Shown here piece after piece: positions 3,001 through 25,927 of a stretch of DNA of 26,287 nt. The stretch lies in IMG/VR virus record IMGVR_UViG_3300028597_000064, positions 1-26,287 of that record. One strand, written 5' to 3'. The DNA is from a virus. Both the position numbers and the translations under genes were made by a program. Below the pieces are notes generated by a model. It saw nothing but the letters and a program-made list of their open reading frames with translations, searched no databases and was not told the origin of the DNA. Numbering within the stretch: position 1 is the stretch's first letter; the number at the start of each line of letters is the position of its first letter.

Positions 3001-3641
3001 AGAGGCAACACCGTGCCGTAGTAGGCCACCTCGTCAATCACACCCGCGTACGGGTCAGAGCCGCTCCCGTCGCTGTTCGCGCCGATGGTCAGGTCGAGAG
3101 CGGAGGCGTTGAGGGCAGCGCTGGTCCCGCTGCTCCCCCTGAGCACGCCGTTGACGTAGATGCGGGCGGTGGTTCCATCCCACGAGGCGGCGACGTGGTA
3201 GGTGGTCCCTGCGGTGATGGTGACGCCACTGGCGTAGACGTAGCGGTTGCCGCCCCCGTCCACACCGAGGTACAGCACGAACTGCGTGCCCTCCTGCCGC
3301 AGCAGGAACGACGACTGCGAGAACGACCCGTTGTAACGAGCGGCGATCACACGGGACTGGTTGCTCGCGCTGGGCTTGACCACCGCCTCGATGGTGAACT
3401 GCGAGACGTCCATCCACGCGGCGTCCGCGACCCGGCCACGGTGCACCGTCGAGCCGGGGAAATCGACTGCGGTGCCAGACCCGGAGCCCAGTAGGCCCGA
3501 TACGCCACGGGTTGGCGAGCCGTCGTAGACGCCGTTCCTGCCACTCCCGCTGGCGTCGAGCATCGTCGACGAACCGGCTGGGTCGTCAAGACGCCAATAG
3601 GCCAGCGGCGCATCCGCGAGCACTTCGTCGGCGTACGCCAC
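1..3641 (-). CDS. Large multidomain minor tail protein with tandem LamG domains (3' end outside window)
   Basis: The frame is open from a GTG at 3641 to the left edge (at least 1213 residues, no stop), so the C-terminus is missing. Two tandem concanavalin/LamG-like domains are visible. The first (about residues 1-223) opens with PLAYWRLDD and a DASGSGRNG turn. The second (about 228-450) opens with PLAYYRLGE and DSSGNGRTG. A carbohydrate-binding-like beta domain follows (about 475-640), then a further beta-rich region, then a jelly-roll-like domain beginning near SFNRPDGPVG (about residue 900). Short linkers of the form A-S/A-L-x-G-T-G-x-F-T-A-T recur five times. Such proteins are usually surface-binding tail-tip or appendage proteins, and the position after the tape measure and a small appendage gene fits. 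The start is supported by GGAGGGG about 10 bases upstream, though that site lies in a hairpin. The binding target is unknown. Confidence 0.8.
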   Translation of the reverse strand, partial: MAYADEVLADAPLAYWRLDDPAGSSTMLDASGSGRNGVYDGSPTRGVSGLLGSGSGTAVDFPGSTVHRGRVADAAWMDVSQFTIEAVVKPSASNQSRVIAARYNGSFSQSSFLLRQEGTQFVLYLGVDGGGNRYVYASGVTITAGTTYHVAASWDGTTARIYVNGVLRGSSGTSAALNASALDLTIGANSDGSGSDPYAGVIDEVAYYGTVLPLGRITAHYAAGFLTPYPASVLAESPLAYYRLGETSGLYMLDSSGNGRTGDYDAGGVILGAAGLLPGDPDKAIDIKTVSVTGRPGRVDYAAWMDLPAFSVETLFQPDSVDAGPKTLVSRFNGTGANDMTYSLRLDGDVVTFWRGTAAGFVSVASSVPVVVGGTYHVVATYDGTTARLYLNGALVGSAAQAAHNVTNQRINIGSAGSAGGGGERFDGRIDEVAFYGAALSPARVAAHYAAAGIATPAPQVTASLASTGKFTARAVRGDMGPNIYPDPQFAGPGGDTGFWYGASKTTALPPGLPPSYTSAGYIDSAITSGGYGFRTANMPVQAGKQMTVGAWVCVVSDPGWDGHADVQLSMWSDHEDWADAVYVGSTSTIQEADGWTWVQWLYVPSAGHLWPSLEVIAYGDTAGPAGGKVRAYATGVEIRQQVDAVRTASLGGTGTFTATATQVVPGPTGTRFYLPSAGAPAVSPAFHPAWTQYSDATRRPLVRTKSNTPISAPTPTKGEGNERALSQFVSEPLAAQTISGTVRVAISAMVTWATFRPYLQMRVSVCGLDGSSKAVLWAGLADQDASSSPTAPNYLFDQLAEKIRVQTDTLTSYTCSAGDRLVIELGYWHILTELSGRYAWLRFGDPTASSDIPATVDARDTANAPWVQFSQDFTFIPEPPPGPPQVAAALVGLGYHTATVAVVPPVTNVVDSFNRPDGPVGTADSGHVWQGHAATISSNRLYVGTSQNMQRAYLDAGRSNLTMTVDVHRGTENYQTLWLRYDHAANTAYRVAFGNDYAFVEAWNGGTREVLTEAFPLADNSMITASVKIEEVAAYGGAIVTRITVYRNGVPLFEVDDNTSSRPKTATGIALSGQGTDYRFDNLRVTAPVDPVVPIARTASLTGTGNFTATRALVTSAPQVAGALVGTGTFTATVDGGDGPVLAPAYLLVSDAEVDQPPGTITVAVANFEPLTVVTFTIDGVTVTGEQTDASGAIVEMTIPVARQFAAGPHAV

Positions 3642-4018: not shown

Positions 4019-4060
4019 CTCTGCTCCTATAGCGAGAGGTGGGTGTGCTGATGACTTCGA

Positions 4061-7000
4061 CTAGCGGCGACGCGGCCGGGTGGTGACGTTGCGGTTCGAG
4101 GAGCCGAGGGTTTCCTTGATGATCTGGCGGACCTTGCCGGTGTCAGCGCCGTCGATGTGGATGGTCGTAACGGCCGTTGAGCGGGCGCTGGCAGCGTCGA
4201 GCTGGCTCACTCGGTCGACCCGCATCTGCTCGACCTGACGGCGCACCTGATACGGGGTGGGGAGCTTGATGTCGCCGAAGTTCCACTGCCCCTGCATCGA
4301 CTCGGCCGCGCTCTTCATGAGGCGGTCGATCTCGTCGAGCTGTTGCTGCTGCTGGTAGGTGCGGTTCTTGATCGCCCCGAGGCGCTTGCGCTCGCTCTCC
4401 AGGTAGGAGATGTACTTGCGGTGGGAGATCCGGCCGAGCTCCTCGGCGGTCTGCACGGCCTCCAGACGCTGCTGGAAGGCGGTGGCCTCCCGCTCGATCT
4501 GCGCCTGTCGCAGTGCCACGCGGGACGCGGCGACGGTGCCGCGGTCCTGGCCCGAGGCGATGTCGGACTGCAGCCGGCGTCGGGCGTCCTTGACCGCCGC
4601 GGTAGCCATGGCCAGCGGGTCGGACAGGTCGATCGAGAGCAGGTAGAGGTTGTTCTGCAGGTCGAGCATCTCCTGGCGCGCCTGCTCGCGCTCGGCCTCG
4701 CGGTCCTTCTTGGACTTCTTGTCCTTCGAGGGGTCTTTCGGGGGCTCGAAGCCGGGCACGTCGGAGCCGGACGAGTAGACGTCGTCCTCCCAGCCCCCTG
4801 CCGTCTGCATGGAGCCGAGAGCTCCGAGCATCTGCTCGGCGTTCTTGTCGCGGCCCGGCATCTGGCCGGGGACGCCACCACGGACGAACTCGTCGATGCC
4901 GCTCATCATGGACATCGCTTCGCGCTTGACGGCCTCGATCTTGAGGTACGCCTCGCGGGCGGCTCGGGCCGCGTTGATGGCCTCCTGGAGGATCGCGCGG
5001 GCGACGTCGACGGCGGTGTCGCCGGCCTGCCCGATGATCCGGGCGAGCAGATCCTGATTGCCGCCTCGGATGGCGGCACGGATCTCGCGGCGCATGAACC
5101 GCTGTCCGACCCGAGCGACCTCAGCGCGCGACGTGGCGTTGCGCTGGGCGGCGCGACGGAGGTTCTCCAGCTCGTCGAACTGCGACTCAGCCAGGGCGCG
5201 TCGAGCGGAGGCGATGCGTTCGGTCAATGCACCGACGTCGCCAGCCCCGGACTGCCTACGGGTCTGCAGGAGACGCCGCAAGCGACCGGTCTGCACCCGG
5301 ACGCGTCCGCCGAAGTCGGTCTCCTGCATCCCGTCGAGCTTGTTGTCGAACTCGTTGTCGATGTTCTCGGCAACCGCCATGACCTCTTCCTTGGTCAGGG
5401 CGGTGTTCTTCTTGAGCGCCTGACGCCATGCCACGGCCTCGCCGCGGAGCTGGCGGGCGATCATGTTGACCATGGACTTGCGGGCGTCGGCGAGGTCGTC
5501 GCCCTCGATGCCCTCGAAGTCCTCCTCGGAGACCAGTGACCGGGCGATGTCGCGCGACGTGCTCCGGTCGAGCTGGGTCTTGTCGGTGATGCCGCGCTGG
5601 GCGAGCTGGGCCTTGAGGCGGTCCTGCAGGACGGACTCGGTGGGGGTGTAGACCTCCGACAGGGTGCGCTTCTCGTACTGCGCCTGAGAGAACTCGTCGG
5701 TCGAGTAGCCGGTGAAGACGTCGTACGTCTTCTCGACCTTGGCGCCTGCCGCGCGGAGCTGGTCGTTGAGGACGGTGCCGAGGACGCCGTCGAGCTGGAC
5801 TCGGTCGCCGATGCCCTTCACGCCGTCGCGGATGGAGTTGGCCATGCGGCCGGCGAACTCATCGGGGTCGATCGCGGCTGCAGCGCGGATCGCGGCGTCC
5901 CCAGTGCCGTCCAGGGCGTCGGCGAGGAGCCGCAGGCGGTCGTCGGCAGTGCCACCGCTGGCGGTGAGCGCCTCGAACGCGTTCTTGATCGTGTCGGGCT
6001 GGAAGTCCGCGAGCGCGGGAACCTCGATGGGGTTGGCTGCTGCGCGGGCGTCGATGGCGTCGGCAACGGCGCGACGGCGAGCGGCCTCCTCCTCCAGACG
6101 CTGCGCCGTAGCGATGTTCGAGTCGTCGGCCTGCCCGAAGGTGACCGCGTTCATGAACCAGCCGGTGGCGTCGCGGTTCTGCTGGGCGAGCGAGTCCAGC
6201 TCGGACGCGCTGGCGACGTAGTCGGAGCTGGTGGAGTCGCGGGTGAGGCCCGAGCTGCGCAGGGCCTGCTCGGCTCCCTCCTGGGCCTCGCGCATCCGGT
6301 CCGAGGACTGCTTGAGCGCGCTGATGGCGAGGAGCCCGCCGATCGCTGCAGCGAAGGGGCCGACCGTGGCGAGAGCGGCCTTGCCGGCTGCTGCGTAGCC
6401 GGATGCGCCCGCGCCCGCGATGATGCTGCCGGTGGGTGCGCGAACGCCCGTTGAGGCGGCCAGCGACGGGGTGATGAGGCCGGCCCGGCTAAGGAGGCCC
6501 GCGCCGCCCTGGGAGAGGGCAGCCATGCGTGCAGCGCCGCCGAGGAGGGCGATCGAGGCGACCGCACCCTTGACCACGCCGGGGAGCTGGTTCCAGACCT
6601 GGAGGATCGACGTTGCGGCCTCCACCAGCTCGCGGAAGGCGATGATCATGCCGCCCAGGACGTCGAGGACGCCGCTCTGGCCCAGCTCGGAGGCGAACGC
6701 CTTCATGACGGCGACGGTCTGCTGGATCTGCCCGCCGATGTCGTTCATGCGGAGCTCGAAGATCCGGTCGCCCTCGCCGGTCGCGCCAGAGCGCGCGGAG
6801 CGGGCTTCGCGCATGATCGTGTCGAACTCGTCGAGCATGACGACGGCGGCGTTCTGGACCTTGCCTCGACCGAACCCGGCCGCGATCTCGGCGCGCTCGG
6901 TGTTGGAGGCGTTCTCGTAGACCCGTGCCAGCTCCTGGATCTGGGTGGCGAGGTCAGCAGACTGGTCGATGCCGTACTTGCCGGTCATCGCGACCAGAGA

Positions 7001-8701
7001 GCCCTCGCCGCCACGGGAGAAGATCTGCGCCATCCAGCCGGCTACAGCGCTGGATGTCTGGCCGGTGCGCGACTGGAGGGCAGCCGCGATCGCGAACACT
7101 TCCTCCTGGTTGAAGCCAGCGGCCTGACCGACCGTGCCGGACTCGGCGACGGACTGGATGGTCTCGCCGGGCATGACGCCGAAGCGCCGGCCGAGGTAGG
7201 CGTCGAGGTCGTAGGCGCGGATCTGGCCCTGCGCTCCCCCGCCGAAGGCGTTGGCGACGGCAGCGATCTGGGTCTGCAGCTCCATCGGGTCCGTCTTGGA
7301 CCCCAGGGCCATGCGGGACACGACACGCGCGGAGATCTCTGCGATGCGCTCCTGCTCGGCCAGGGACGCCCCGGAGGACTCGGTGGCCCCGAACAGGCCG
7401 AGGGAGCGCGCACCGAGCATGACGCCCTGCGAGGGGGCGGCGCCGGCCATGGTCGCCTGGGCGGCGAGGCCGTCAGCCATCTCTGCTGCGGCGTCGGCCG
7501 AGGCGCCCGAGGCGATCTTGAGCTCGGTCATCGCCTGCTGAAACTCGATGCCCTCCTGCAAGGTCTGCTGCAGAGTCGCGGTGAGCGCGAAGAGCGCCTT
7601 GTAGGCGGTGCCGTAGAAGACAGAGAACTTGAACGCCTGCCCGATCTGCTCGGCGTACGGGCGGTCACCTCGGCCGTGGAAGCCGGTCATGAACTGCGAG
7701 CCGAAGCCGCCACCGCCCGAGCCACCGGCCATGCTCGCGGCGCGCTGCGAGTAGGCGCGGCTGTTCATCTCCCCAGCGAGCTTGTTCTCGGCAAGGATCA
7801 GTCGCCGTTCGGCCGCCCTGACCTGCTCGTCGACGCGGATGCGCTCATCGGCCGATGCCCCGGCCTTGGTGGCGATGGTCGCCTGACGGCTCTGGGCGCG
7901 CGCCAGTCGGCTCGCGGCCTCATTGACGTCGTCCTGCAGCTTGCCGACCTTCGTGGTGACGTCGGGGCTGTCATACTTGGGCTGGACGGCGTTGTATGCG
8001 ATGTCCTCGCGGGCGCGGGTGGTGTAGCCCTGGATCGCCCCGAGCGTGTTCTTGCGCTCCAGCGCGTTGAGCTCGGCGGCGACCTTGGCGCGCTCCCTGA
8101 GCTGGGTGCTGTGCTGGTCGTACTGCCTGTCGTGCCACCAGTCGTCGAGCTTGGCCTGACCGTCGACCCGCCTCTTGGCCTCGGCGATCTCCGCCTTGTT
8201 GACGTTGTCGAAGGCTTGCTGCTGGGCCTTGGCAGCGGCGTTGACGGCGCGGAGGGAGGCGTTGTCGGCACGCTCCCGGAGCATGAGCGACCCGGTCTCG
8301 TTGACCGTGGTCTTCTTGCCGTTCTCGTCGTAGTTCCACTCGCCGATGAACTTGGGGTGCTGCGGGTTGTAGGCGGGGTTGGGGAAGGTGCCCTTGGCGT
8401 TCGTGATCGTCGGCGTGCTGATCGAGAGCTGCTTGTGCACCTGGGCGCGGGCCAGCTCGGCGTCACGCAACCTGAGCGTGGCGGCGGTGAGGTCGTCGTA
8501 CTCGCGCAGGGTGGTGCGCTCCAGCCCCGACTGGGCCTGCGCACCGAGGTTGCCGAACGCGCTCGATCGGACCGCCGCCGACGAGAGACGGTTGAACTCC
8601 TCGGCCTGCCGTGCGATCCGCTCCTGGTCGGTCAGGTACCTCTGCACCTGATCCTGGCCGGAGTAGATCCAGCCGATCTTGGTGACCAGCTCGTCAACCA
8701 C
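4061..8701 (-). CDS. Tape measure protein
   Basis: At 1546 residues this is the longest complete gene in the window. It directly follows the chaperone pair, as expected for the protein that sets tail length and is packed inside the tail tube. The N-terminal 350 residues are rich in charged and Ala/Gln helices. Hydrophobic segments lie at about residues 354-380, 677-724 and 755-794, typical of tape measures whose hydrophobic parts may assist DNA passage. A Lys/Arg/Glu-rich stretch is near 1320-1344, followed by long helical sequence, and the C-terminus is basic (TTRPRRR). No lysozyme or peptidase motif was recognised. The GTG start at 8701 is preceded by GGAGAGGA and lies 2 bases after the stop of the chaperone frame. 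By the rough rule of 1.5 angstroms per residue the tail would be near 230 nm. Confidence 0.93.
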   Translation of the reverse strand: MVDELVTKIGWIYSGQDQVQRYLTDQERIARQAEEFNRLSSAAVRSSAFGNLGAQAQSGLERTTLREYDDLTAATLRLRDAELARAQVHKQLSISTPTITNAKGTFPNPAYNPQHPKFIGEWNYDENGKKTTVNETGSLMLRERADNASLRAVNAAAKAQQQAFDNVNKAEIAEAKRRVDGQAKLDDWWHDRQYDQHSTQLRERAKVAAELNALERKNTLGAIQGYTTRAREDIAYNAVQPKYDSPDVTTKVGKLQDDVNEAASRLARAQSRQATIATKAGASADERIRVDEQVRAAERRLILAENKLAGEMNSRAYSQRAASMAGGSGGGGFGSQFMTGFHGRGDRPYAEQIGQAFKFSVFYGTAYKALFALTATLQQTLQEGIEFQQAMTELKIASGASADAAAEMADGLAAQATMAGAAPSQGVMLGARSLGLFGATESSGASLAEQERIAEISARVVSRMALGSKTDPMELQTQIAAVANAFGGGAQGQIRAYDLDAYLGRRFGVMPGETIQSVAESGTVGQAAGFNQEEVFAIAAALQSRTGQTSSAVAGWMAQIFSRGGEGSLVAMTGKYGIDQSADLATQIQELARVYENASNTERAEIAAGFGRGKVQNAAVVMLDEFDTIMREARSARSGATGEGDRIFELRMNDIGGQIQQTVAVMKAFASELGQSGVLDVLGGMIIAFRELVEAATSILQVWNQLPGVVKGAVASIALLGGAARMAALSQGGAGLLSRAGLITPSLAASTGVRAPTGSIIAGAGASGYAAAGKAALATVGPFAAAIGGLLAISALKQSSDRMREAQEGAEQALRSSGLTRDSTSSDYVASASELDSLAQQNRDATGWFMNAVTFGQADDSNIATAQRLEEEAARRRAVADAIDARAAANPIEVPALADFQPDTIKNAFEALTASGGTADDRLRLLADALDGTGDAAIRAAAAIDPDEFAGRMANSIRDGVKGIGDRVQLDGVLGTVLNDQLRAAGAKVEKTYDVFTGYSTDEFSQAQYEKRTLSEVYTPTESVLQDRLKAQLAQRGITDKTQLDRSTSRDIARSLVSEEDFEGIEGDDLADARKSMVNMIARQLRGEAVAWRQALKKNTALTKEEVMAVAENIDNEFDNKLDGMQETDFGGRVRVQTGRLRRLLQTRRQSGAGDVGALTERIASARRALAESQFDELENLRRAAQRNATSRAEVARVGQRFMRREIRAAIRGGNQDLLARIIGQAGDTAVDVARAILQEAINAARAAREAYLKIEAVKREAMSMMSGIDEFVRGGVPGQMPGRDKNAEQMLGALGSMQTAGGWEDDVYSSGSDVPGFEPPKDPSKDKKSKKDREAEREQARQEMLDLQNNLYLLSIDLSDPLAMATAAVKDARRRLQSDIASGQDRGTVAASRVALRQAQIEREATAFQQRLEAVQTAEELGRISHRKYISYLESERKRLGAIKNRTYQQQQQLDEIDRLMKSAAESMQGQWNFGDIKLPTPYQVRRQVEQMRVDRVSQLDAASARSTAVTTIHIDGADTGKVRQIIKETLGSSNRNVTTRPRRR

Positions 8702-8703
8702 TG

Positions 8704-9033
8704 TCAGTCCTCTCCCCGTAGTCCACGCGTGAGCTCGTTGCCCGTCATCTCCGCGTCTTCGGCTTGGTCAATGGGTTGAAGACCGCTCTCTCGGCGCTGC
8801 TTGATCGCCTCAAACCACCCCTCCAGTCGGGAGGCGTGGTGCCAGATGTTCTCGTCAGGTACTTCGTCGTCCGGGAGCTCGAAGTAACCGAGCACCTGGA
8901 GCGCCGCCGTGATGGCGACTGTCAACTCGTGGGGGCAGCGCCGGGCGTCCCGTCCGGGGAAGAGAGAGTCGAGGGAGCCTCCGACGCGCTTGAGGGCTCC
9001 GATGATGCGGAGGAACTCACCGGAGCGTCCGAG
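8704..9033 (-). CDS. Tail assembly chaperone T extension, made by -1 frameshift (GT fusion spans 8704-9812)
   Basis: This frame is open from just after a TGA at 9043-9045 down to the stop at 8704, and lies in the -1 frame relative to the upstream chaperone gene. It is probably not translated alone: the only start at the overlap is a TTG at 8925 with no convincing ribosome site. A GGGAAAC heptamer at 9033-9039, in the correct phase, would shift ribosomes into this frame. The result is a fusion of 260 G residues plus 109 T residues (369 in total). The T part includes an amphipathic helix region and an acidic YFELPDDEVPDE stretch. In lambda and many siphoviruses the GT product bridges the tape measure and tail tube protein during tail assembly; the order major tail protein, G, T, tape measure here matches that. 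Confidence 0.82.
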   Translation of the reverse strand, partial: LGRSGEFLRIIGALKRVGGSLDSLFPGRDARRCPHELTVAITAALQVLGYFELPDDEVPDENIWHHASRLEGWFEAIKQRRESGLQPIDQAEDAEMTGNELTRGLRGED

Positions 9034-9812
9034 TTTCCCGCTTCACGCTGCGGGGTGGTCTGGCCGTCGAGGGAGTCGATGATCTTGCTGATGACCTGGG
9101 GCGGGAGCGTCTTGACCAACGAGCGTTCGGACAGCAGTCGCACGCTGTGGTCGCAGTTGCCGTGCGCCCACTCACCGGGCTTGCCGACCGCTCGGCACTC
9201 GCGGGTGGCGACGTAGATCTCGGTGATGCGGCGCTCCTCCATGAAGAGGTCGAGGGTCTGCCGCTCACGCCACTTCTCGAAGTAGGACGCCTCCAGGTCT
9301 TCGCGGGTGAACTCCTCGGCCTCCCGCAAGGACTCGTTCTGCTTCTTCTCCTGGCCGTTGCGGATGGCCTGCATGTACTCGATCTGGAGCTCTTCGAGCT
9401 GCTTCCAGCGGGGGTCGTCGTCACCAACGCCGGCATCGCGCAGGAGCTGCGGCATGCGGCGCATCTCCTCGACCTTGGCGCGCCACTCCTCAGAGGTCTC
9501 GATGTCGTTGACGACGTCGAGGTACATCTCCTCCACGTGGTGGTTGACCCACGCCTGACGGAGCTTCTCGTCGCTCATGAGCTGGACCTCGGCGTCGAAC
9601 GCGGCCCGTTCGGGGTTGTCGCGGTCGGCGAGGTCGCGCATCTTGAGGCCGCGCTTGACGATGCCGTCTCGGCGGGCTTCCTCGATCTCGAACGTGTTGA
9701 GCTTGTTGACCCAGATCAGCACGGGCTCGTCCTGCTCATCGTTGCCGAGGAAGATCGCCTCGCCCTCGACGAACAGGTCAGTGACCCGGCGCAGCCGTCC
9801 GATGGTGTCCAT
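8922..9812 (-). CDS. Tail assembly chaperone G
   Basis: This 296-residue protein lies between the major tail protein and the tape measure. It is charged and largely helical, with many Glu/Arg/Lys residues, and ends in a Ser/Pro/Ala-rich tail from about residue 260. That low-complexity tail is translated only when the ribosome does not shift at the slippery heptamer. A role as chaperone for tape measure and tail tube is inferred from position, the frameshift arrangement and composition rather than a catalytic motif. The ATG at 9812 has an AGAGG site 5 bases upstream. It is longer than the roughly 140-residue lambda G protein, but long first chaperones occur in phages of actinobacteria. Confidence 0.85.
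   Translation of the reverse strand: MDTIGRLRRVTDLFVEGEAIFLGNDEQDEPVLIWVNKLNTFEIEEARRDGIVKRGLKMRDLADRDNPERAAFDAEVQLMSDEKLRQAWVNHHVEEMYLDVVNDIETSEEWRAKVEEMRRMPQLLRDAGVGDDDPRWKQLEELQIEYMQAIRNGQEKKQNESLREAEEFTREDLEASYFEKWRERQTLDLFMEERRITEIYVATRECRAVGKPGEWAHGNCDHSVRLLSERSLVKTLPPQVISKIIDSLDGQTTPQREAGNSDAPVSSSASSEPSSASEAPSTLSSPDGTPGAAPTS
9033..9039 (-). other. Programmed -1 ribosomal slippery site GGGAAAC
   Basis: On the minus strand the heptamer reads G GGA AAC in the zero frame of chaperone G (end of an Ala codon, then Gly and Asn codons), the canonical X XXY YYZ phase. The -1 frame has a stop only 3 bases upstream of the heptamer and then stays open to 8704. Downstream, GGAGCC and GGCTCC can pair as a 6-bp stem with a loop of about 15 bases, a possible stimulator. 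Such sites are well established between G and T genes of siphoviruses. Confidence 0.88.
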
Positions 9813-9858
9813 GTGTGCCTCTGTTCCTAGTTCAGTTCCATCTCCCCCGAGGGGAAGA

Positions 9859-9884
9859 GCCCGCCCCTGGAGTCAGGGGCGGGC
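9859..9884 (-). terminator. Hairpin after the major tail protein gene
   Basis: A perfect 11-bp inverted repeat (gcccgcccctg at 9859-9869, its complement at 9874-9884) has a 4-base loop and begins about 15 bases after the major tail protein stop. Read on the minus strand it is followed by TCTTCCCC, pyrimidine-rich but not a true U-tract. A terminator, partial attenuator or mRNA 3'-end stabiliser is plausible. Confidence 0.7.
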
Positions 9885-9899
9885 CAGTCCGTGCAGTGA

Positions 9900-11123
9900 T
9901 CAGGCGTCGAAGACGAGGAGGGTGCCCTCGTCGGACTCGTACGGCAGAGAGACGGTCATCTTCTGCAGCACGCGGCCCTGGTAGCCGGGGGCCGAGAAGC
10001 GGGCGTCCGGCACGTGGAGGCGCTTGATGGTGTCGCCGGTCTCCGGGTTCTTGATGACCACGTCAAGCGTCAGCGGAACGGCCGTCGAGGCGCCGATGAC
10101 CTTGAGCGGGTCGGAGACGCCGGTCACCTTGCGGAGCAGGGAGAGCAGGTCGGCGTTGTCGCGGGGCTTGATGTCGATCGAGCCGTTGACGGTCGGCACC
10201 TCGAAGTCCTGGGCGACGGCGTAGTAGTTGCCGAACTCCTCGTCCTTCTCAAGCTGCACGCGCCAGTCGACGTTCACCGACTGCACGGAGTTGAGGCGGT
10301 ACTGCTGCGAGCCGGGACGGTCGGCCGGGTCGTAGCCACCGACGTAGATCTCGATGTCGCGACCCTTGACCGCGGCCGGCTTGACCGTGGTGTCGGGGTG
10401 CACCGTCTGCGGGTAGCTGGTGACGTCCGGGCTGGAGTAGACGACGCGGATCTCGGCGTCGACCGCGACCGGGTCGGCGATGGTGATCGTGGTGACGCCG
10501 GCACCGTTGGTGACGGTGGCGTAGGACTCGGTGTAGTCCGCGCCGTACGCGAGGCGCTTGTCGCCCACGGTGACCGCCAGGATGCGGCGGGCCTCACCCT
10601 CGGCGACCTCGTAGGCCGGGTGCGCGGTGACGATGGTCTGGTCGGCAGTGTTGGTGCCGTCGTGAACCTCAACGTACGTTGCGCCGGGGTTGTAGAAGAT
10701 GGTGTCGCCACGGAGGGTGGCGGTCTGGGTGGCGTTGTCCCGCAGGCCGAAGCGGTAGGACATCTGCTCCAGGGTCAGGTACGGCAGCGCGACCGAGGTG
10801 GTGACCTGGGCGGGCAGCGCGGACTTCTCGCCGGCCTTGAACTGGGACGCGATGTCGAGCGGGAGCGACCGGGCGAGGTCGATGCCCACTGCGGGGTCCG
10901 AACCGGGGACCAGGAGCTCCTCGACCTCGGTGGAGGTGTCGAACGACTCCAGCGTGAAGGTGAGGTCCGGGGTGTCGCGAACGGTCGCGACGGACTTGTA
11001 GTTGCCGAGCTCGTTGATCTTCTCGGTCGGGATGTTGAGCTGACCGGGACCGCCGCTCTGGATACGGTCAATGACCGCTACGCCGTTCCCCACGTGCAGG
11101 ATCTGACCGCCCTTGATGGCCAC
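9900..11123 (-). CDS. Major tail (tube) protein
   Basis: This 407-residue protein immediately precedes the chaperone pair and tape measure, the usual place of the tail tube protein. It is beta-rich. The N-terminal part has a TVRDTPDLTFTLESFD stretch and the C-terminal part includes NGSIDIKPRDNADLL and LTLDVVIKNPETGD, like tube proteins with a paired beta-sheet core. A central segment (about residues 170-232) looks like an inserted Ig-like domain, which would explain a length above the common 200-300 residues. The GTG at 11123 has a strong GAGAGGAG site 6 bases upstream. A strong hairpin follows the gene, consistent with high expression. Assignment rests on composition and gene order. Confidence 0.85.
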   Translation of the reverse strand: MAIKGGQILHVGNGVAVIDRIQSGGPGQLNIPTEKINELGNYKSVATVRDTPDLTFTLESFDTSTEVEELLVPGSDPAVGIDLARSLPLDIASQFKAGEKSALPAQVTTSVALPYLTLEQMSYRFGLRDNATQTATLRGDTIFYNPGATYVEVHDGTNTADQTIVTAHPAYEVAEGEARRILAVTVGDKRLAYGADYTESYATVTNGAGVTTITIADPVAVDAEIRVVYSSPDVTSYPQTVHPDTTVKPAAVKGRDIEIYVGGYDPADRPGSQQYRLNSVQSVNVDWRVQLEKDEEFGNYYAVAQDFEVPTVNGSIDIKPRDNADLLSLLRKVTGVSDPLKVIGASTAVPLTLDVVIKNPETGDTIKRLHVPDARFSAPGYQGRVLQKMTVSLPYESDEGTLLVFDA

Positions 11124-11200
11124 GGGTGGCTCCTCTCGCCTTTCGTCGCGCTATCACGAGCGCCTTCGAGAGAGGACTTCGACCGTGCAGGGAACGGACG

Positions 11201-11869
11201 TTATCCGGGGCCACCCGAGGGCCGGACCCGCATGTCGGCGACCTTCTCCAGGAACCGCCGGCTGATCTCCACGGCGCGGGCGTCCCACTCCGGGTTGCGC
11301 TTGGCGTCGCGGTAGGCGTTCATGGGCTGGATCTGCCTGCGCGGGTGGAAGATCGGCAGCGTGGAGCCCTTGCCGCGCCGGAAGGGGTGGTACATCTCCT
11401 GGCGCGCGTCGCCACGGGCGCGACCCCTGCCGAGAGCCACCCAGTCGCCGGATGGGCCACTGCGCCAGGACGCGATGTTCATGCCCCACAAGCCCTGCAG
11501 CTCCAGGGACAGGAAGGAGCGCTTGGTCCACGTCTTGGCCGAGCCCTCCTCGATGGTGCGCCAGTACTTGGCGATCGACTGGTCGAGGCGCCTCTGGTTG
11601 CCGACCCCGGCGTACGTGTCGTTGTAGACGGCGTTCCAGGGCTCCATCGTGACCTTGACGAGCCGGTTGGTGCTCACACCCTTGCGCAGGATGCGGCCTG
11701 CGATGAGGGCGCCGACCTGCGCTTGGACGGCGAAAGCGAGCTGCCGGTTCTGCGCCTCCATGTCGGCCTTCGCGACCTGGAAGCGGCCCCGCTCGTTGCG
11801 GATGGCAGGGAGGCGAGGGGCCTTGATGTTGATGTGGAGGCCAGGGCTCGGAGAGTGGCTACTGGCCAT
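11201..11869 (-). CDS. Basic neck-region protein, function unrecognised
   Basis: This 222-residue protein is strongly basic, with an Arg-rich second half and a C-terminal Pro/Gly tail. It has alternating helical stretches and a Trp-rich centre (KYWRTIEEGSAKTWTKRSF). It starts with an ATG at 11869 that overlaps the end of the 94-residue gene by 11 bases, so the two are probably translationally coupled. Its place between tail terminator and major tail protein suggests a role in head-tail joining or tail completion. It does not show the typical HK97 gp10 pattern, so I do not name it. A TAA stop at 11201 is followed by a 77-base gap holding a GTCGAAGT octamer. Confidence 0.78.
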   Translation of the reverse strand: MASSHSPSPGLHINIKAPRLPAIRNERGRFQVAKADMEAQNRQLAFAVQAQVGALIAGRILRKGVSTNRLVKVTMEPWNAVYNDTYAGVGNQRRLDQSIAKYWRTIEEGSAKTWTKRSFLSLELQGLWGMNIASWRSGPSGDWVALGRGRARGDARQEMYHPFRRGKGSTLPIFHPRRQIQPMNAYRDAKRNPEWDARAVEISRRFLEKVADMRVRPSGGPG

Positions 11870-12143
11870 GGGTGAGCTCCGAGCGGAGGATCTCCATCTG
11901 GCTCGACAGGCGGGCCATGAGGCGTACGGCGTCCTCGTTGACGATGGAGCCGTCGTCGATGGACGCCTTGAGCATGTCGACGCACACGTCGTGGTAGGCC
12001 CCGACCGCGGTGAGGACGCGCTTGCGCAGCTCGCGCTGCTCGTGCTCGGACAGGTGGCGGTAGACGTTGGACTCGATGTAGGTCATGAGGTTGCCGACGA
12101 GGCGGCGTCGCTGCTCGTTGAGCAGGTTGCGGGCGAACTGCAT
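11859..12143 (-). CDS. Small helical protein of the neck region
   Basis: This 94-residue, mostly helical and charged protein begins with MQFARNLLNEQRRRLV. The ATG at 12143 overlaps the stop of the tail terminator gene as ATGA, and the TAG at 11859 lies inside the start of the next gene, so it sits tightly in the connector operon. The frame continues upstream, but the overlap and the upstream gene's own coding argue for this start. I do not recognise a family. A structural or assembly role is inferred only from neighbours. Confidence 0.75.
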   Translation of the reverse strand: MQFARNLLNEQRRRLVGNLMTYIESNVYRHLSEHEQRELRKRVLTAVGAYHDVCVDMLKASIDDGSIVNEDAVRLMARLSSQMEILRSELTHGQ

Positions 12144-12670
12144 CACGCCTCCTGCATGACGTCGTTGAAGTAGGCGATCGCGGTCACCTTCACGACCTGC
12201 CAGCGCAGCGGCATGGCGGTCTCTGGGGACACACGGTCGACGTCGTCGAGCTCGATCTTCCAGCCGGGCACGGGCTGCTTGGTGGACTGGTCGACGACGT
12301 CGAGCCAGCGCCGGCTGCCGGCGACGCGGCCGAGGAAGATGTCGCGGATGTCGCTGGCGAGGGTGAGCGCTGCGGTCGAGGTGTCCTGGAACACGTCGAC
12401 GAAGATCGGGTACTCCTGGCTGGTGAACGGCCCGCCGAGTTCCTGGGGGTCTGGGCCGAACTCGTCGCCGAGGGTGACGGCGATCGTGCCTGCGGTGACC
12501 TTGGAGTCGAGCTGGGTGCCGACGACGGCCGAGGTGGTGATGATCTTGGCCGGCGTTGCGCCGAAGGGCGTGGTGGCGGCGTCGGTCCACCCGAGGGCGT
12601 CGAGGCGTGCCTTGAGGTGATTTGCCACGGTGTGGTGGACGTGGCGCGAGGCGTGTCGCAGATATGTCAT
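12143..12670 (-). CDS. Tail terminator-like protein
   Basis: This 175-residue protein has a helical N-terminus (TVANHLKARLDALGW), beta strands, and a central SQEYPIFVDVFQDTS segment followed by DIRDIFLGR. This alternating alpha/beta pattern resembles tail terminator or minor tail U-type proteins, which cap the tail tube and join it to the head. Its ATG at 12670 overlaps the preceding stop as ATGA, and its own stop overlaps the next ATG likewise. Position after adaptor and stopper candidates and before the major tail protein agrees. No sequence search was possible. Confidence 0.72.
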   Translation of the reverse strand: MTYLRHASRHVHHTVANHLKARLDALGWTDAATTPFGATPAKIITTSAVVGTQLDSKVTAGTIAVTLGDEFGPDPQELGGPFTSQEYPIFVDVFQDTSTAALTLASDIRDIFLGRVAGSRRWLDVVDQSTKQPVPGWKIELDDVDRVSPETAMPLRWQVVKVTAIAYFNDVMQEA

Positions 12671-13116
12671 CAGGATTCTCCCTCGGCGAGGCAGATGACC
12701 GACCAGACGTCGATCGTGCCGAGAGCGACCGGGGGCTGCACGGTGGAGCGGTGGTAGACGTCTCCCCCGGCCTTGACGTGGGTGAAGTCCTTCACCTGCT
12801 GCCAGTCGGGGTCGAGCATGGTGAGAATGACGCGGGCCGGGATGTAGGTACCAAAGGTCTCGGTCTGCGGAGCACGGTCCTGGTACTCCACGACGCAGTC
12901 GACCTGCTTGGTCTCGCCGGCTCGGGTGTTGGTGATGCGGTCGTCCGGGTCGAACGGGATGCCCTCCTCGTCAACGTCGCCGGCCGGTGCTGAACGGGCG
13001 TTGAAGTAGAAGGTGACCTTGTCCTCGGGGCGGGTCGGCTCACCGAAGCCCATCGCCTGCTTGAGGCCCTGGAGCACCCGAGCCTCGTTGAAGCTCGGCG
13101 GGACGTACTTGGTCAT
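12670..13116 (-). CDS. Head-tail stopper-like protein
   Basis: This 148-residue protein lies directly after the adaptor candidate. It is beta-rich, with an acidic loop (DVDEEGIPFDPDDR) and a VDCVVEYQDR strand. Stopper proteins close the portal channel after packaging and are usually 100-150 residues long, placed between adaptor and terminator genes; that order is the main argument. The ATG at 13116 starts 2 bases after the upstream stop with only a weak GGGG ribosome site, suggesting coupling. Confidence 0.65.
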   Translation of the reverse strand: MTKYVPPSFNEARVLQGLKQAMGFGEPTRPEDKVTFYFNARSAPAGDVDEEGIPFDPDDRITNTRAGETKQVDCVVEYQDRAPQTETFGTYIPARVILTMLDPDWQQVKDFTHVKAGGDVYHRSTVQPPVALGTIDVWSVICLAEGES

Positions 13117-13118
13117 GG

Positions 13119-13616
13119 TCAGCCCCTGTACTCGTAGGCGAACAGCCCGCCCCCGGTGATGCCACCGCCGCGTGCCAGGTAGTTGTCGAACACCGCCGTC
13201 ATCGGGCGGGCCGCGGAGCGCTGGTCAGCGACGATGCCGTCGAGGCGCTCCTTGAGGAACTTGAGCTCGTCGCGCAGCAGGTTGGCGCTGCGCTGGGTCT
13301 CCACCTCGGCGGGGCCGGCCTTGTACCGCTCGCTGGTGAGCAGGGTGCGGAGGCTGGCGCGGATGATGCGGATGGACGTGAAGATGATGACCAGCGCCGC
13401 CCCGGACGCGGAGAGATCCTGGGAGGTCTCCCAGTCGTCGCCGAGGTCGTCGAGAGTGAGGGTGGGGAAGAAGCCGTAGAGCTGGGCCTCGGCGAAGCCG
13501 TCAGCGAGGCTGTGCGCGAGGTCGATGTCGGTGGTGTTCGGGAACTCGGCCTCGAACATGCCAGGGACCGCCAGCTCCCGCTGCAGGGCTGGGACGAGAG
13601 TCGAGAGCGCGGTCAT
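13119..13616 (-). CDS. Head-tail adaptor (connector) protein
   Basis: This 165-residue protein is dominated by helices: an N-terminal LSTLVPALQRELAV stretch, a hydrophobic helix near residues 70-92 (SASGAALVIIFTSIRIIRAS) and a long charged helix near 95-135. The C-terminus is Gly-rich. Helical bundles of this size that follow the head genes are typical of adaptor proteins (gp6/gp15 type) that dock on the portal. The ATG at 13616 lacks a good ribosome site; a GTCGAAGT octamer sits 7 bases upstream instead. It opens the connector run after a hairpin. Confidence 0.7.
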   Translation of the reverse strand: MTALSTLVPALQRELAVPGMFEAEFPNTTDIDLAHSLADGFAEAQLYGFFPTLTLDDLGDDWETSQDLSASGAALVIIFTSIRIIRASLRTLLTSERYKAGPAEVETQRSANLLRDELKFLKERLDGIVADQRSAARPMTAVFDNYLARGGGITGGGLFAYEYRG

Positions 13617-13639
13617 GCCTACGACTTCGACTCGGACGC

Positions 13640-13678
13640 AGAGACGGCCCCTCCACGCGCTGAGGAGGGGGCGTCTCT
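13640..13678 (-). terminator. Hairpin between the unrecognised 160-residue gene and the connector genes
   Basis: Two 15-base arms (13640-13654 and 13664-13678) pair with one central G-G mismatch around a 9-base loop. No U-tract follows on the minus strand. A GTCGAAGT octamer (13624-13631) follows directly, and then the start of the adaptor gene at 13616. Confidence 0.65.
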
Positions 13679-13723
13679 ATCACCAACCGGGGGATGCACC
13701 CTGGTGCGGCGAGTGTAGCGGGA

Positions 13724-14206
13724 CTACTTGCGCGGCGGGGCCTTCGGCTGCATCTCTTCGTAGGTGGGCATGGACCCACCGATGGGCCACTTCTCCTGGA
13801 TGACCTCGTCGATGAACTCCATCTCGGACTTGCTCGCGTCGACCTCCACGACCATGGCCTTGAGGCGACGGACGTTCACCTGCCCGAGCTCGCGGACGGT
13901 GTTCTGGAAGTCGGACTGGTCGAGCTCGAAGATGGCCTTGAGGTCGTCGTCGGACAGCTCATCCGGGGAGGGGGCGTGGCCCTTGCCGTCGACGCGCACG
14001 AGCATCCCGTTGCGGAACGGGTTGTTCTCGGGCTTGCGGATGACCTCCTCCGCGAGCTCACGGTCGAGCTGGCTGAGCCGTAGCCGGCTGCCCTTGCCCG
14101 ACACGGAGACGGTCTGCTGCTGTCCGCGGCTGTTCTCGACGGTCAGGGAGACGCGACCGGGGATGGTCGACTCCCAGATCTCGCGGGTCTTCTCTCCAGT
14201 GGCCAT
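13724..14206 (-). CDS. Unrecognised protein between holin and connector genes
   Basis: This 160-residue, acidic protein has a beta-rich first half (RVSLTVENSRG, QQTVSVSG) and a helical second half (SDDDLKAIFELDQSDFQ), ending in PKAPPRK. I chose the ATG at 14206 because GAGAGG is 7 bases upstream; the ATG at 14212 would leave only 1 base. It forms its own small unit, with a 94-base gap upstream carrying a GTCGAAGT octamer and a hairpin downstream. A head, tail or lysis-related role is equally open. No motif gives a function. Confidence 0.72.
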   Translation of the reverse strand: MATGEKTREIWESTIPGRVSLTVENSRGQQQTVSVSGKGSRLRLSQLDRELAEEVIRKPENNPFRNGMLVRVDGKGHAPSPDELSDDDLKAIFELDQSDFQNTVRELGQVNVRRLKAMVVEVDASKSEMEFIDEVIQEKWPIGGSMPTYEEMQPKAPPRK

Positions 14207-14300
14207 GTCCATACCTCTCGCTGTTCCTTGCCCCCATTCAATCGGGGCTGTCTATGACTTTCCGGTGTCGCAGGATCGTCAACAACTTCGACAGCAGCGA

Positions 14301-14645
14301 TCAGACGGGGTCACCCGGCCACGGGTCGATGCCCTCGTCGGGGGGCATGGTCACCTCGGCCTCGACGTGGGCGTCAGCCGGCGCCTGGACGGCCACGAGG
14401 CCGGCGAGGGTCTCCGAGGTCGTCAGGGACGGTCCCGTGCCGCCTGTGGCCGCGTCAGAGGCGATCGAGCCGAGGATGGACAGCAGGCCGGCCATGCCGG
14501 CGACCGACAGGACGCCGACCCAGTCGGTGTCGAGCAGGCCAGTGCCGTTGCCGATGAGGATCGAGCCGAGGCCGTAGGCCACGGACTTCACACCCCGCTC
14601 GAACGCGGCGCGCCAGAACTCCCCGGTGTAGATGCTCATGCTCAT
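14301..14645 (-). CDS. Holin, r1t-like
   Basis: This 114-residue protein has an FWRAAFERGVKS opening, a first membrane segment at about residues 17-37, a TGLLDTDWVG turn, and a second membrane segment at about 41-64. This arrangement matches the r1t holin family, small two-helix proteins that permeabilise the cytoplasmic membrane at lysis. The C-terminal 50 residues are soluble and acidic. The ATG at 14645 overlaps the endolysin stop as ATGA. A second ATG two codons later (MSMS) is also reachable from the GAGGAGGAG site, so either or both may be used. The endolysin gene lies immediately upstream. Confidence 0.88.
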   Translation of the reverse strand: MSMSIYTGEFWRAAFERGVKSVAYGLGSILIGNGTGLLDTDWVGVLSVAGMAGLLSILGSIASDAATGGTGPSLTTSETLAGLVAVQAPADAHVEAEVTMPPDEGIDPWPGDPV

Positions 14646-15280
14646 CACTCCTCCTCGGCGAGCAGGTTGTCGATCTCGACCTGGGTGGCGAGATCCGTGA
14701 CCTGGGCGCGCAGCTTGCGCAGCAGCAGGTTCGTCTTCTTCTCCCGCTCGCGGGACTTGGCCTGGGCGTCGATCAGGCGATCGAGCTTCTGGTCCATGCC
14801 CTTGAGCAGCGAGTCGTACTGGGCCATGTCGTCCTCCGGTGGGTAGGGCCATACGGGCTGAGGGATCGGGTTGAGGCGCGGGCCGTCATCCGGTCCGTCG
14901 CCCTTGAGTCCGTTGCGGCCCCGCAGGTACGACAGCTCCTGCGCCTTCGCCCCGGACGCGAGCAGCGGGTGACCGATCACCCCGGCGTGGATGTGGTCCA
15001 CCCACGGCCCCTGCTCGGGCGTGCGGTGCCACGCGAACATGCCGGCCTCGCGCAACGCGCGGACGCACTTCTTGTGACGGCACCAGCGGATGTCCACGAC
15101 CCCTCCCCGGTCGTGGGTGCCGGCGCTGTTCACCTCTCCCCCGCCGTTCTGGTACGAGCCCTGGGTGATCGTGAACTGGTGGCCGGCGATCGCCTCGGCG
15201 TGCTCGATGCACGCGATCGTGAGGGCGTCGATGTTCGTTCGCCCGCGCCACTCAGGGCGCTCAAGTCGAGGGTCGCTCAT
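14645..15280 (-). CDS. Endolysin, M15-type (L-Ala-D-Glu or D,D) peptidase domain
   Basis: This 211-residue protein contains an AGTHDRGGVVDIRW motif (His56, Asp63) and a PWVDHIHAG motif (His96/His98), matching the zinc ligands of M15 peptidases that cleave peptidoglycan cross-links. The catalytic domain spans about residues 10-125. A Pro-rich linker (about 136-150) leads to a C-terminal coiled coil (about 155-205) rather than a recognised cell-wall-binding domain. An in-frame ATG at 14827 (residue 152) has GGAGG 5 bases upstream and could give a separate 60-residue coiled-coil product. The main ATG at 15280 lacks a clear ribosome site and has a GTCGAAGT octamer 7 bases upstream. Exact bond specificity cannot be read from sequence. 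Confidence 0.85.
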   Translation of the reverse strand: MSDPRLERPEWRGRTNIDALTIACIEHAEAIAGHQFTITQGSYQNGGGEVNSAGTHDRGGVVDIRWCRHKKCVRALREAGMFAWHRTPEQGPWVDHIHAGVIGHPLLASGAKAQELSYLRGRNGLKGDGPDDGPRLNPIPQPVWPYPPEDDMAQYDSLLKGMDQKLDRLIDAQAKSREREKKTNLLLRKLRAQVTDLATQVEIDNLLAEEE

Positions 15281-15314
15281 GGTCTGTACTTCGACCCCGC
15301 CCGTACGCGGACAG

Positions 15315-15360
15315 CACGAAGCCCCCCAGGGAGACCCTCATCAGCCTGGGGGGCTTCGTG
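15315..15360 (-). terminator. Strong 16-bp hairpin after the major capsid gene
   Basis: A perfect 16-bp inverted repeat (15315-15330 and 15345-15360) surrounds a 14-base loop, about 35 bases after the capsid stop. The GC-rich stem lacks a following U-tract, and could act as a terminator on either strand or protect the capsid mRNA 3' end. It separates the head genes from the lysis pair. Confidence 0.82.
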
Positions 15361-16926: not shown

Positions 16927-17445
16927 TCAGCCCTCCTGGCTCACGTAGCGCCGCAGGAGGAACCCCTTGGCGACCGACTCGGTGCCGTTGCCGGCAACCT
17001 GCTGTCCGGCCATCGCGGTCTCGCGCGGAACGACGGTGGTGGTCTTGGTCGTGGTGCTGGTCGACGCGAGGTCGGCGAGGTAGCCCTCGAAGTCCTCGTC
17101 GGCCATGGCGACGATGCGGGCGACCCGCTTCTCGTCCTCGAAGAAGTCCTCCGCGAGGTGGCTCGCGGTCTCCTTCGCCTTGGCGATGCGCTCGTCCTTG
17201 CGGGCGGCAGCCTCACGCTCGGTCTCGATCTGGGCCTTGAACTCCTCCAGGGCCTTCTCGGCGTCCGCGGCCTTCTGCTCTGCAGCCTGCTTGGCGCTCT
17301 CGGCAACGTCGAGCTTGGTCTCCAGCTCGCCCTTGTCCGAGACGAGCTGGTCGCGCTCGGCGGTCAGATCAGCCGTCTCCTTGGCCACGCGGTCGCTGAG
17401 GATCGCGATGTGCTCGTTCTCGGAGTACGTCTTCTCGTCTGCCAT
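16927..17445 (-). CDS. Scaffolding protein
   Basis: This 172-residue protein has a long Ala/Glu/Lys/Asp-rich coiled coil (about residues 10-98, for example AESAKQAAEQKAADAEKAL), an acidic patch, a Thr-rich linker (STSTTTKTTT) and a short basic C-terminus (LLRRYVSQ) that could bind capsid protein. This is the usual design of internal scaffolds that guide procapsid assembly and are then removed. It directly precedes decoration and capsid genes. The ATG at 17445 has a strong GAGGAGG site. Confidence 0.85.
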   Translation of the reverse strand: MADEKTYSENEHIAILSDRVAKETADLTAERDQLVSDKGELETKLDVAESAKQAAEQKAADAEKALEEFKAQIETEREAAARKDERIAKAKETASHLAEDFFEDEKRVARIVAMADEDFEGYLADLASTSTTTKTTTVVPRETAMAGQQVAGNGTESVAKGFLLRRYVSQEG

Positions 17446-17492: not shown

Positions 17493-17546
17493 AGCTTTCG
17501 GTGAGGGACTTCGGCACGTATGACGAAGGTGTGGAGAACGCGCGTT

Positions 17547-17581
17547 GAGGGACGGTCAGGCCAGCGGCTTGACCGTCCCTC
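17547..17581 (-). terminator. Hairpin overlapping the end of the fibre cassette
   Basis: A perfect 12-bp inverted repeat (gagggacggtca at 17547-17558, its complement at 17570-17581) with an 11-base loop overlaps the stop codon and last codons of the 69-residue gene. No U-tract follows on the minus strand. It separates the fibre cassette from the scaffold-capsid genes. Confidence 0.75.
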
Positions 17582-17765: not shown

Positions 17766-17770
17766 CTACG

Positions 17771-24274: not shown

Positions 24275-25927
24275 TCAGCCCTTCGGGTTTCCGTTGCCGG
24301 TGCGGCCCTTCACCTGTCCCTGGACGGACTGCGGAGAGTCCCCGCCGCCCTTGGGCCGGCCACCTCGTGCTCCTGAGACCTGTGCCGGCTCCTCTCCTTG
24401 TCCTTCGGCTCCTGGAGCGCCGTCGCCACCGGGGTTGCCGGCAGCCGAGAAGGGCACCTGGGTCTGGAAGATGTCGTCGAAGTACTCCTCCTCGAACTCC
24501 CGGCGCAGGGCCTCGGTGGCCTGATCGAAGCCAAAGAACTCCAGGGTCGACTCGCGGGAGAGCTCCTTCTGGGTGCGCAGCGCGAGGATGGCGCGGACGG
24601 TCTCGCCGTCGTTGTCGAGCTGCACCGAGCGGGGCGTGAAGGTGAGCTTGGGCTCCTCGGTGAACATGCCGGCGTTGGCCGGGTGCTCGACGACGCGGCG
24701 GGCGATGTGCTCCTCCAGGGAGCGCTTCATCATGTGGCGGCGGGTCTCCAGGAGCCGGCCGATGCCGCGGGCGATCGTCAGGGTCGACTCGTTGCGCTGT
24801 CCGGACTGGGCGATCGACATCGCGCCGAGGCAGCGGGACATGATCCGCTGGTCGAGGGCTCCGTACTTGGCGCTGTCGAGGACGTGGGTCTGGTCGGGGG
24901 TGATGATGTCGATCGAGAGCCGGTGGTCGCCGATGACGACGGGGAGCTTGGCGACGACCTTGAAGTTCTCCTGCAGGTTGTCCAGCTCAGCCTGTGCGGC
25001 CGGCTCGTCCTTGGAGCCCTGGCGCACGAGGAGGATGTAGTTGGCCGCGCCGACGAGGTTGACCCGGTCGGCCTCCATGAGCTGCTGCTTGAGGTCGAGC
25101 AGCGGGAAGACGGACTTGAGGCGGATCATGGGGAACCGCTCGTAGCTCATCTTGGTCCGGGTGTGCCGGAAGACGCTGCCGGGGTTGATGAGCAGCAGGC
25201 GCTTGGGGTCGACGCCGATCGAGCCGAGGTACTCTCGCTCGGCCTTGTCGAGCTCGGGGGCAGGCCCGAGGGTGAACTCGCGGAGGACGGGGTCGCCGTA
25301 GGCGTTGTCGTAGGAGGCGACGGCTGCGGCGTACTCCTCCTTGGTGGCGTTCCATGCGAGGCGGTCCTGGCCGAACGGTCCGGGGCGCAGCGGGACGACG
25401 CGGCTGGGGTCGAGGAACGTCAGCGCGCGGGGGCAGAAGACGGTGACCTTCTTCTTGCGCTTGACGCCGCTGGAGGTCCGTCCGCGCACGGTGTAGGTGT
25501 TGCGGCCCCACCAGACGCCGACGACGACCTGGGAGTGGATGAACTCCTCGCGGTGCCACTGGCGGGCGAAGGCGTCGAGGTTCAGGTCGCGGGCGATCTG
25601 GTTGAAGATGTCGGTCTCGTCGGCCTCGCCGGACTCCCACTGGACGCCCTGGAGCATGAGGCCCTCGGTGACGTCGCAGACACCGCCGACGACGTCGTCG
25701 TTCTCGACGGCCTTCCGGGCGGTGGCCATGAGCGTGTAGGGGTTGTCGGGGGCGACGTACGCCTGCCGGTTGTAGAGCGAGGGCTTGCCGCGCTGGGTGC
25801 TGACCCAGTTGGCGATCTCGCGGCCGACGCGGTTGACGTAGGGCGCGATCGAGCTGTCGTCGACCACTCCCCCGGTGGCGTTGATCCACTGTGCGCCGGC
25901 CTCGGCGGTGTGCACTTCGACGGTCAC
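24275..25927 (-). CDS. Portal protein
   Basis: This 550-residue protein has the size and make-up of a siphovirus portal, the dodecameric ring through which DNA is packaged and ejected. It is helical and charged, with a long central helical region (about residues 300-420) and a disordered Gly/Pro-rich C-terminal tail of about 60 residues. The protease gene follows at once. I chose the GTG at 25927, which overlaps the preceding stop as GTGA; the frame is open upstream, but there it would lie within the preceding gene. Assignment is from length, composition and gene order; no single motif is decisive. Confidence 0.85.
   Translation of the reverse strand: MTVEVHTAEAGAQWINATGGVVDDSSIAPYVNRVGREIANWVSTQRGKPSLYNRQAYVAPDNPYTLMATARKAVENDDVVGGVCDVTEGLMLQGVQWESGEADETDIFNQIARDLNLDAFARQWHREEFIHSQVVVGVWWGRNTYTVRGRTSSGVKRKKKVTVFCPRALTFLDPSRVVPLRPGPFGQDRLAWNATKEEYAAAVASYDNAYGDPVLREFTLGPAPELDKAEREYLGSIGVDPKRLLLINPGSVFRHTRTKMSYERFPMIRLKSVFPLLDLKQQLMEADRVNLVGAANYILLVRQGSKDEPAAQAELDNLQENFKVVAKLPVVIGDHRLSIDIITPDQTHVLDSAKYGALDQRIMSRCLGAMSIAQSGQRNESTLTIARGIGRLLETRRHMMKRSLEEHIARRVVEHPANAGMFTEEPKLTFTPRSVQLDNDGETVRAILALRTQKELSRESTLEFFGFDQATEALRREFEEEYFDDIFQTQVPFSAAGNPGGDGAPGAEGQGEEPAQVSGARGGRPKGGGDSPQSVQGQVKGRTGNGNPKG

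Follow-up and report, generated by a model that had tools for sequence, protein, structure and literature searches.

A recurrent GYCGAAGT octamer as a candidate -10-like element of late promoters for a sigma-28-type factor in uncultured high-GC phages

Bacterial promoters of the FliA/WhiG (sigma-28) type have the consensus TAAA at -35 and GCCGATAA at -10 (PMC2859248; PMC8325347). In phage T4, the late promoter (TATAAATA, read by gp55) is a box spanning -13 to -6, and this lone 8-bp box works with helper proteins (PMC1524935). Structural genes of phages phiEco32 and 7-11 are preceded by short, conserved extended -10-like motifs, found via intergenic comparison and serving a sigma encoded by the phage (PMC4331800). 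In cluster K mycobacteriophages, an asymmetric repeat termed SAS is found in one orientation 3-7 bp from gene starts (PMC3203893). Finally, a -10 box (TANNNT) located ~10-12 bp before a start codon is taken as the mark of a leaderless gene in bacteria, since such proximity implies a leaderless mRNA (PMC3160421).

Here we analyse an octamer, GTCGAAGT (GYCGAAGT as a group consensus), that recurs in a 26,287-base stretch of viral DNA (the window, i.e. the whole stretch analysed) and in its metagenomic relatives. With bacterial FliA/WhiG promoters it shares the 5' part of the -10 element, as the first five positions match GCCGATAA (GCCGA; T also at position 2), and the sigma factors of the relatives belong to the FliA/WhiG family. 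It differs in positions 6-8, which are AGT in the core group and TAA in FliA, in the T allowed at position 2, in the lack of a conserved TAAA, and in its association with phage late genes which are often predicted to be leaderless. As in T4, a single 8-bp element at the presumed -10 position lacks a conserved -35, a phage sigma would be involved and late structural genes would be served; here, however, the sigma is of FliA/WhiG type with regions 2-3-4, unlike gp55, the sequences are unrelated, and a dependence on clamp or gp33 is not known for the phage sigma. The likeness to phiEco32 and 7-11 lies in the motifs before structural genes, while those phages have a TGATGT core motif, a sigma distantly related to the sigma-A family and no tie to leaderless starts. 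SAS is likewise asymmetric, uniformly oriented and a few nucleotides before ATG, but it is a 13-bp, SD-like (Shine-Dalgarno-like) sequence of largely non-structural genes, whereas the octamer has no SD character, precedes late genes and also occurs far upstream of SD starts. We thus propose that the element would act in the manner of late promoters in T4, phiEco32 and 7-11, with a FliA/WhiG-type factor, a leaderless arrangement and GYCGAAGT as the box in place of TANNNT.

In the window, GTCGAAGT is present in seven exact copies, compared with a mean of 0.90 (largest 4) in dinucleotide shuffles; the gene-bearing minus strand has six of them and the plus strand one (Table 1). According to gene calls made in this analysis, 97% of the window is coding and 812 nt are not. 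Five of the seven copies, all oriented with transcription, lie inside these 812 nt (binomial P ~6e-7), and a sixth gap holds the one-mismatch form GCCGAAGT. This confirms the first-pass annotation, which had described the octamer in five intergenic gaps of the minus strand, and the word is not equally frequent inside genes of this window. The sites given there were exact for the copies beginning at 11176, 13624, 14285, 15288 and 25914; the first copy lies at 4054-4061, not 4053-4060, and the one-mismatch copy before the scaffold gene, placed there near 17509-17516, is present at 17508-17515. All six minus-strand copies listed were real, but the plus-strand one was overlooked. Both copies within the portal gene are probably due to chance. 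Similarly, several exact copies in coding DNA outside the late module of the 79.5-kb relative G004 look like background.

Table 1. Octamer copies, predicted promoters and associated features of the window
Feature	Position	Strand	Remarks
GTCGAAGT, predicted -10-like element, leaderless promoter	15288..15295	-	exact; 7 nt to ATG of gene 14645-15280; place and spacing kept in G001
GTCGAAGT, predicted -10-like element, leaderless promoter	13624..13631	-	exact; 7 nt to ATG of adaptor gene 13119-13616
GTCGAAGT, predicted -10-like element, leadered promoter	14285..14292	-	72 nt before SD-led ATG of gene 13724-14212
GTCGAAGT, predicted -10-like element, leadered promoter	11176..11183	-	52 nt before SD-led GTG of major-tail-protein-like gene 9900-11123
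GTCGAAGT, predicted -10-like element, leadered promoter	4054..4061	-	after tape-measure gene; SD-led ATG at 4018 lies 35 nt downstream
GCCGAAGT (second form in the group), predicted -10-like element	17508..17515	-	sense strand, gap before scaffold gene 16927-17445; alike in G001, G004, G003
GTCGAAGT, probable chance coding copy	25914..25921	-	within portal gene start, in-frame V-E-V codons; counterpart absent at G001 portal start
GTCGAAGT, probable chance copy	24476..24483	+	antisense within portal gene
Head-tail adaptor-like gene, predicted leaderless	13119..13616	-	identity by position; ATG 13616; no SD match
First gene of lysis-type operon, predicted leaderless	14645..15280	-	ATG 15280; no SD match
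GC-rich hairpin GAAGCCCCCC...GGGGGGCTTC, likely terminator of upstream operon	15318..15357	-	between major capsid gene and 15288 promoter; read from sequence
GC-rich hairpin AGAGACGCCCC...GGGGCCGTCTCT, likely terminator	13640..13678	-	directly before adaptor promoter; read from sequence
Palindrome AACGNNCGTT	1731, 4169, 6443, 9118, 10671, 11193, 12993, 17537, 20868, 23492, 24197		

Two placements of the octamer can be distinguished: i) 7 nt before an ATG or GTG without SD, or ii) 27-89 nt before a start led by an SD. As for i), the window contains two such predicted leaderless genes, the adaptor-like gene and the first gene of the lysis-type operon, and the earlier description of the octamer 7 nt before both ATGs, neither with an SD match, holds. 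PHROG comparison gave no match for the adaptor-like gene; no family match was obtained for the other, previously called an endolysin, and the ORF downstream of it matches holin phrog_443. As for ii), an SD is present where the octamer lies 35-72 nt upstream of the gene, and no start codon is located 7 nt downstream of the far-upstream octamers. One of these, before gene 13724-14212, has a counterpart before the orthologue in G001 only, among the contigs checked, while that of the major-tail-protein gene is conserved in G001, G003 (as GCCGAAGT), G005 and G006. The first base of the copy at 4054 also belongs to the TAG stop codon that ends the tape-measure gene. At the left edge of the window (3-3641), a large protein with two LamG/concanavalin-type lectin domains is encoded, possibly a receptor-binding tail protein.

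The T-tract terminator scan did not pick up either of the hairpins in Table 1, and the sigma-70 promoter scan gave no result. By eye, comparable GC-rich hairpins lie ahead of the adaptor octamer in several relatives. The gap 9813-9899 before gene 8922-9812 contains no octamer, but a GC-rich hairpin with GGAACTGAACTAGGAAC-type repeats behind it; at this position, G001, G003 and G004 have recurring GGAACT repeats.

Relatives were recruited from IMG/VR by the capsid protein (13, later 23 contigs) and include G001 (capsid 97% identical), G004 and G020 (86 kb); their gene calls, made in this analysis, are rough. No close DNA relative of the window was found among phage records, and no prophage relative among assembled genome contigs searched by capsid. 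When the upstream DNA of orthologous genes was compared, G[T/C]CGAAGT appeared in equivalent gaps of the metagenomic relatives, down to ~47% adaptor-protein identity, and was surrounded by random flanks. The octamer has therefore not been lost in relatives, and the differing flanks noted at first pass are borne out by chance-level identity around it. In every close relative the octamer is placed 7 nt from the adaptor start, and it also precedes the first gene of the portal operon. The scaffold and major tail protein genes of the relatives carry it within their leaders and have SD-led starts. The adaptor gene was compared in seven phages: pairwise identity averages 0.93 for the octamer, 0.34 for the DNA upstream of it and 0.41 for the spacer, and all seven have C at -1. 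Besides the window, ten distinct relatives have the octamer or a sigma-28-like variant at this position. The capsid relatives whose adaptors are least similar (G013, G018, G021-G023, GX15bay) have no box there, and most of them show an SD-like start.

The block of genes at 17556-23376, flanked by the head gene 23471-24271 and by the scaffold gene, has almost no counterpart in relatives: only 22978-23376 was matched (38%, elsewhere in G001), and the flanking genes are nearly adjacent in relatives. Within this block, the product of 22331-22978 contains collagen repeats, an unusual location for tail-fibre-like cargo.

The spacing to start codons was counted in six contigs (G000, G001, G003, G004, G006, G012; ORFs of at least 60 aa). 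GYCGAAGT was located exactly 7 nt before ATG or GTG 23 times, and never more than 6 times at any other spacing; for 300 permuted words at spacing 7, the mean was 0.18 and the maximum 4. Among all 8-mers at spacings 0-39, GCCGAAGT at spacing 7 had the top count. In 49 aligned sites, only the octamer, C at -1 and the start codon formed strong columns, and all upstream columns were below 0.25 bit except for the base adjoining the octamer. The C at -1 adds little in itself, because other starts, too, are most often preceded by C (in about half of cases). A short conserved element at a constant distance before late genes is what a phage-sigma promoter of the T4-late or phiEco32 type would show.

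The fixed 7-nt distance to ATG or GTG at SD-less genes might also indicate a translation-initiation element like SAS, with the octamer on the mRNA guiding the ribosome or a phage RNA-binding protein to starts without SD; SAS, too, stands 3-7 bp from starts. We consider this very unlikely. Unlike SAS, the octamer lacks complementarity to the anti-SD; its sequence is similar to a sigma-28 -10 box, and it is accompanied by a sigma gene in relatives. Three of the five exact gap copies are 35-72 nt away from the start, and because the same word is found tens of nucleotides upstream of ordinary SD starts, it is probably not a translation signal. A promoter would explain both placements: with RNA beginning 7-8 nt beyond the box, the transcript would open with the start codon itself in one case and with a leader in the other. 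The first-pass term "start-associated sequence" is thus right as to position for some genes and probably wrong in the sense of a translation signal, while the "regulatory element" proposed alongside it is supported and can be narrowed to a promoter -10-like element.

The best argument for the octamer as a sigma-28-type -10 box is a graded series of boxes at the adaptor position. In distant relatives, GCCGATGA (G020), GCCGACAT (G017), GCCGAGAA (G009) and GTCGAACA (G010) are found there, 7 nt before ATG. Of these, GCCGACAT is identical to the sigma-28 box of E. coli aer (PMC2859248), and G020, the bearer of GCCGATGA, has a FliA-type sigma. Genome-wide, the FliA-like box of distant relatives is only weakly in excess, and the claim for these phages therefore rests on the adaptor position. 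In G010 (55% GC; loci L088, L089), GCATGTCACAGATC was also observed before several ATGs at fixed spacing, with 6-mers occurring 4-5 times against ~0.1 expected; it may be this phage's own start-linked repeat.

As for the -35 region, no conserved TAAA was found ~15 nt upstream of the octamer, nor was it among the commonest 4-mers at offsets -14 to -25. A search by column information and 4-5-mers returned only G-rich words and AACG/GCGTT, parts of a palindrome, at spacings that are not fixed. The palindrome itself, AACGNNCGTT, was rejected as a -35 element, as it lies anywhere between 3 and 30 nt from the octamer. It is abundant in its own right, with 11 copies in the window (0.14 expected) and 49 in G004, where permuted control palindromes reach 0-6. 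The copies are dispersed over genes and gaps, often ~2-3 kb apart, and 12 of 49 octamer promoters have one at most 70 nt upstream (3% at random). The palindrome may represent a dispersed operator-like site.

Among the longer related contigs, nine encode a sigma factor, mostly of FliA/WhiG type. Seven of eleven contigs (G002, G003, G004, G006, G010, G012, G013) gave matches to the domains of sigma regions 2 and 4; the four without them, including the window, are fragments of 15-26 kb, and the sigma gene is absent from both the window and its closest relative G001, also a fragment. In the octamer group (G003, G004, G006, G012), the gene is divergent from the late genes and lies ~6 kb upstream of the portal operon. 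Both proteins scanned, those of G006 and G004, contain regions 2, 3 and 4; the phage sigma thus keeps region 4 although no -35 is conserved at a fixed distance, whereas sigma-28 promoters ordinarily possess one and FliA/WhiG factors usually rely on TAAA, which counts against the promoter reading. The G006 sigma matches TIGR02479 (FliA_WhiG) at 1.6e-49 and the solved WhiG at 6e-32. The TIGR02479 cut-off of 189.6 bits is exceeded by G019 (203) and G020 (230), while G006 (168.6) and G004 (128.4) fall below it, with FliA_WhiG still ranked first or second in NCBIfam. In sigma alignments that include an E. coli FliA row, region 2.4/3.0 retains a D, R, R pattern; a search of the open literature on FliA residues contacting GCC found no paper, and such contacts are not counted as evidence here. 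Isolated phages in the collection gave no close relative of the sigma (best 36% identity). Sigma region 2 was not found in G018, G021-G023 and GX15bay, nor recognised in G017 (61.6 kb), which has the box at its adaptor, and G013 has a sigma but no box there.

The case of G017 would suit a promoter element read by an alternative sigma of the host, a bacterial WhiG or FliA, instead of a phage sigma. Bacterial factors of this kind do read GCCGATAA-like boxes, and leaderless genes are common in Actinobacteria (PMC3160421). However, most relatives long enough to judge have a sigma of their own, and it is in the group with the more diverged sigma that the box deviates from the bacterial consensus by ending in AGT, so that host recognition also seems very unlikely to us.

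About as improbable is a site in the gaps, placed in the sense of transcription, for a repressor or another DNA-binding protein (L5-type stoperator, operator or antiterminator). To our knowledge, stoperators keep no fixed distance to start codons, while the octamer has a fixed spacing at many genes, and exact 7-nt spacing, C at -1 and a purine at +1 amount to promoter geometry. Stoperators do resemble the octamer in being asymmetric, located in short intergenic spaces and aligned with the direction of transcription (PMC9283540), but they are 13-mers and not 8 bp long. The module-exchange boundary also suggested at first pass, i.e. recombination between phages at copies on operon borders, has a negligible probability, since conservation is limited to the 8-bp word, a single C at -1 and the start codon, with flanks at chance identity, the distance is constant to the downstream gene only, and the gene order of the relatives is conserved with no shuffling at octamers.

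We therefore favour the view that a sigma-28-type factor encoded by the phage uses GYCGAAGT as the -10-like element of its late promoters and that some genes have leaderless mRNAs as a result, and assign to this reading a probability of roughly 0.8. According to the model, the phage sigma related to FliA/WhiG would bind host RNA polymerase and recognise the octamer, with RNA beginning about 7-8 nt downstream. At the adaptor, the lysis gene and, in relatives, the portal operon, the first transcribed base would be the A or G that opens the start codon, leading to an mRNA without leader; at the scaffold, the major tail protein and the genes ending at 14212 and 4018, it would start ahead of an SD-bearing leader. 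Promoters would lie between late operons, at least two directly after a hairpin, so that each block could be restarted independently. The recurrence, conservation and spacing of the octamer, the sigma gene in relatives and the likeness to the FliA/WhiG -10 consensus are observed. The pairing of sigma and element is inferred, since the window is a fragment without a sigma gene, as are the transcription start and, from the genes served, the late timing; the sigma gene of the window's phage presumably lies beyond the contig end, ~6 kb past the right end and in divergent orientation.

A more far-reaching scenario, which we regard as tentative and rather doubtful, is that of a sigma-28-type phage factor freed from the -35, with a lone 8-bp element, a mixed late regulon and many starts on the start codon. 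Sigma and element might have co-diverged from bacterial WhiG/FliA (GCCGATAA to GYCGAAGT), and a co-activator or clamp might have taken over the role of the -35 contact, similar to T4.

In the open-licence literature, we found no description of a FliA/WhiG-type phage sigma with late promoters or of systematic leaderless late genes, and the octamer is not named in the relevant literature searched. For this group of uncultured high-GC phages, the proposed element would allow late promoters to be read as a code that is linked to an identifiable sigma. With it, start codons misplaced by gene callers could be corrected and late operons read from sequence alone. Furthermore, the sigma/-10 pairs form a natural series that runs from GCCGATAA-like boxes to GYCGAAGT and may serve for the study of how sigma-28 specificity changes.
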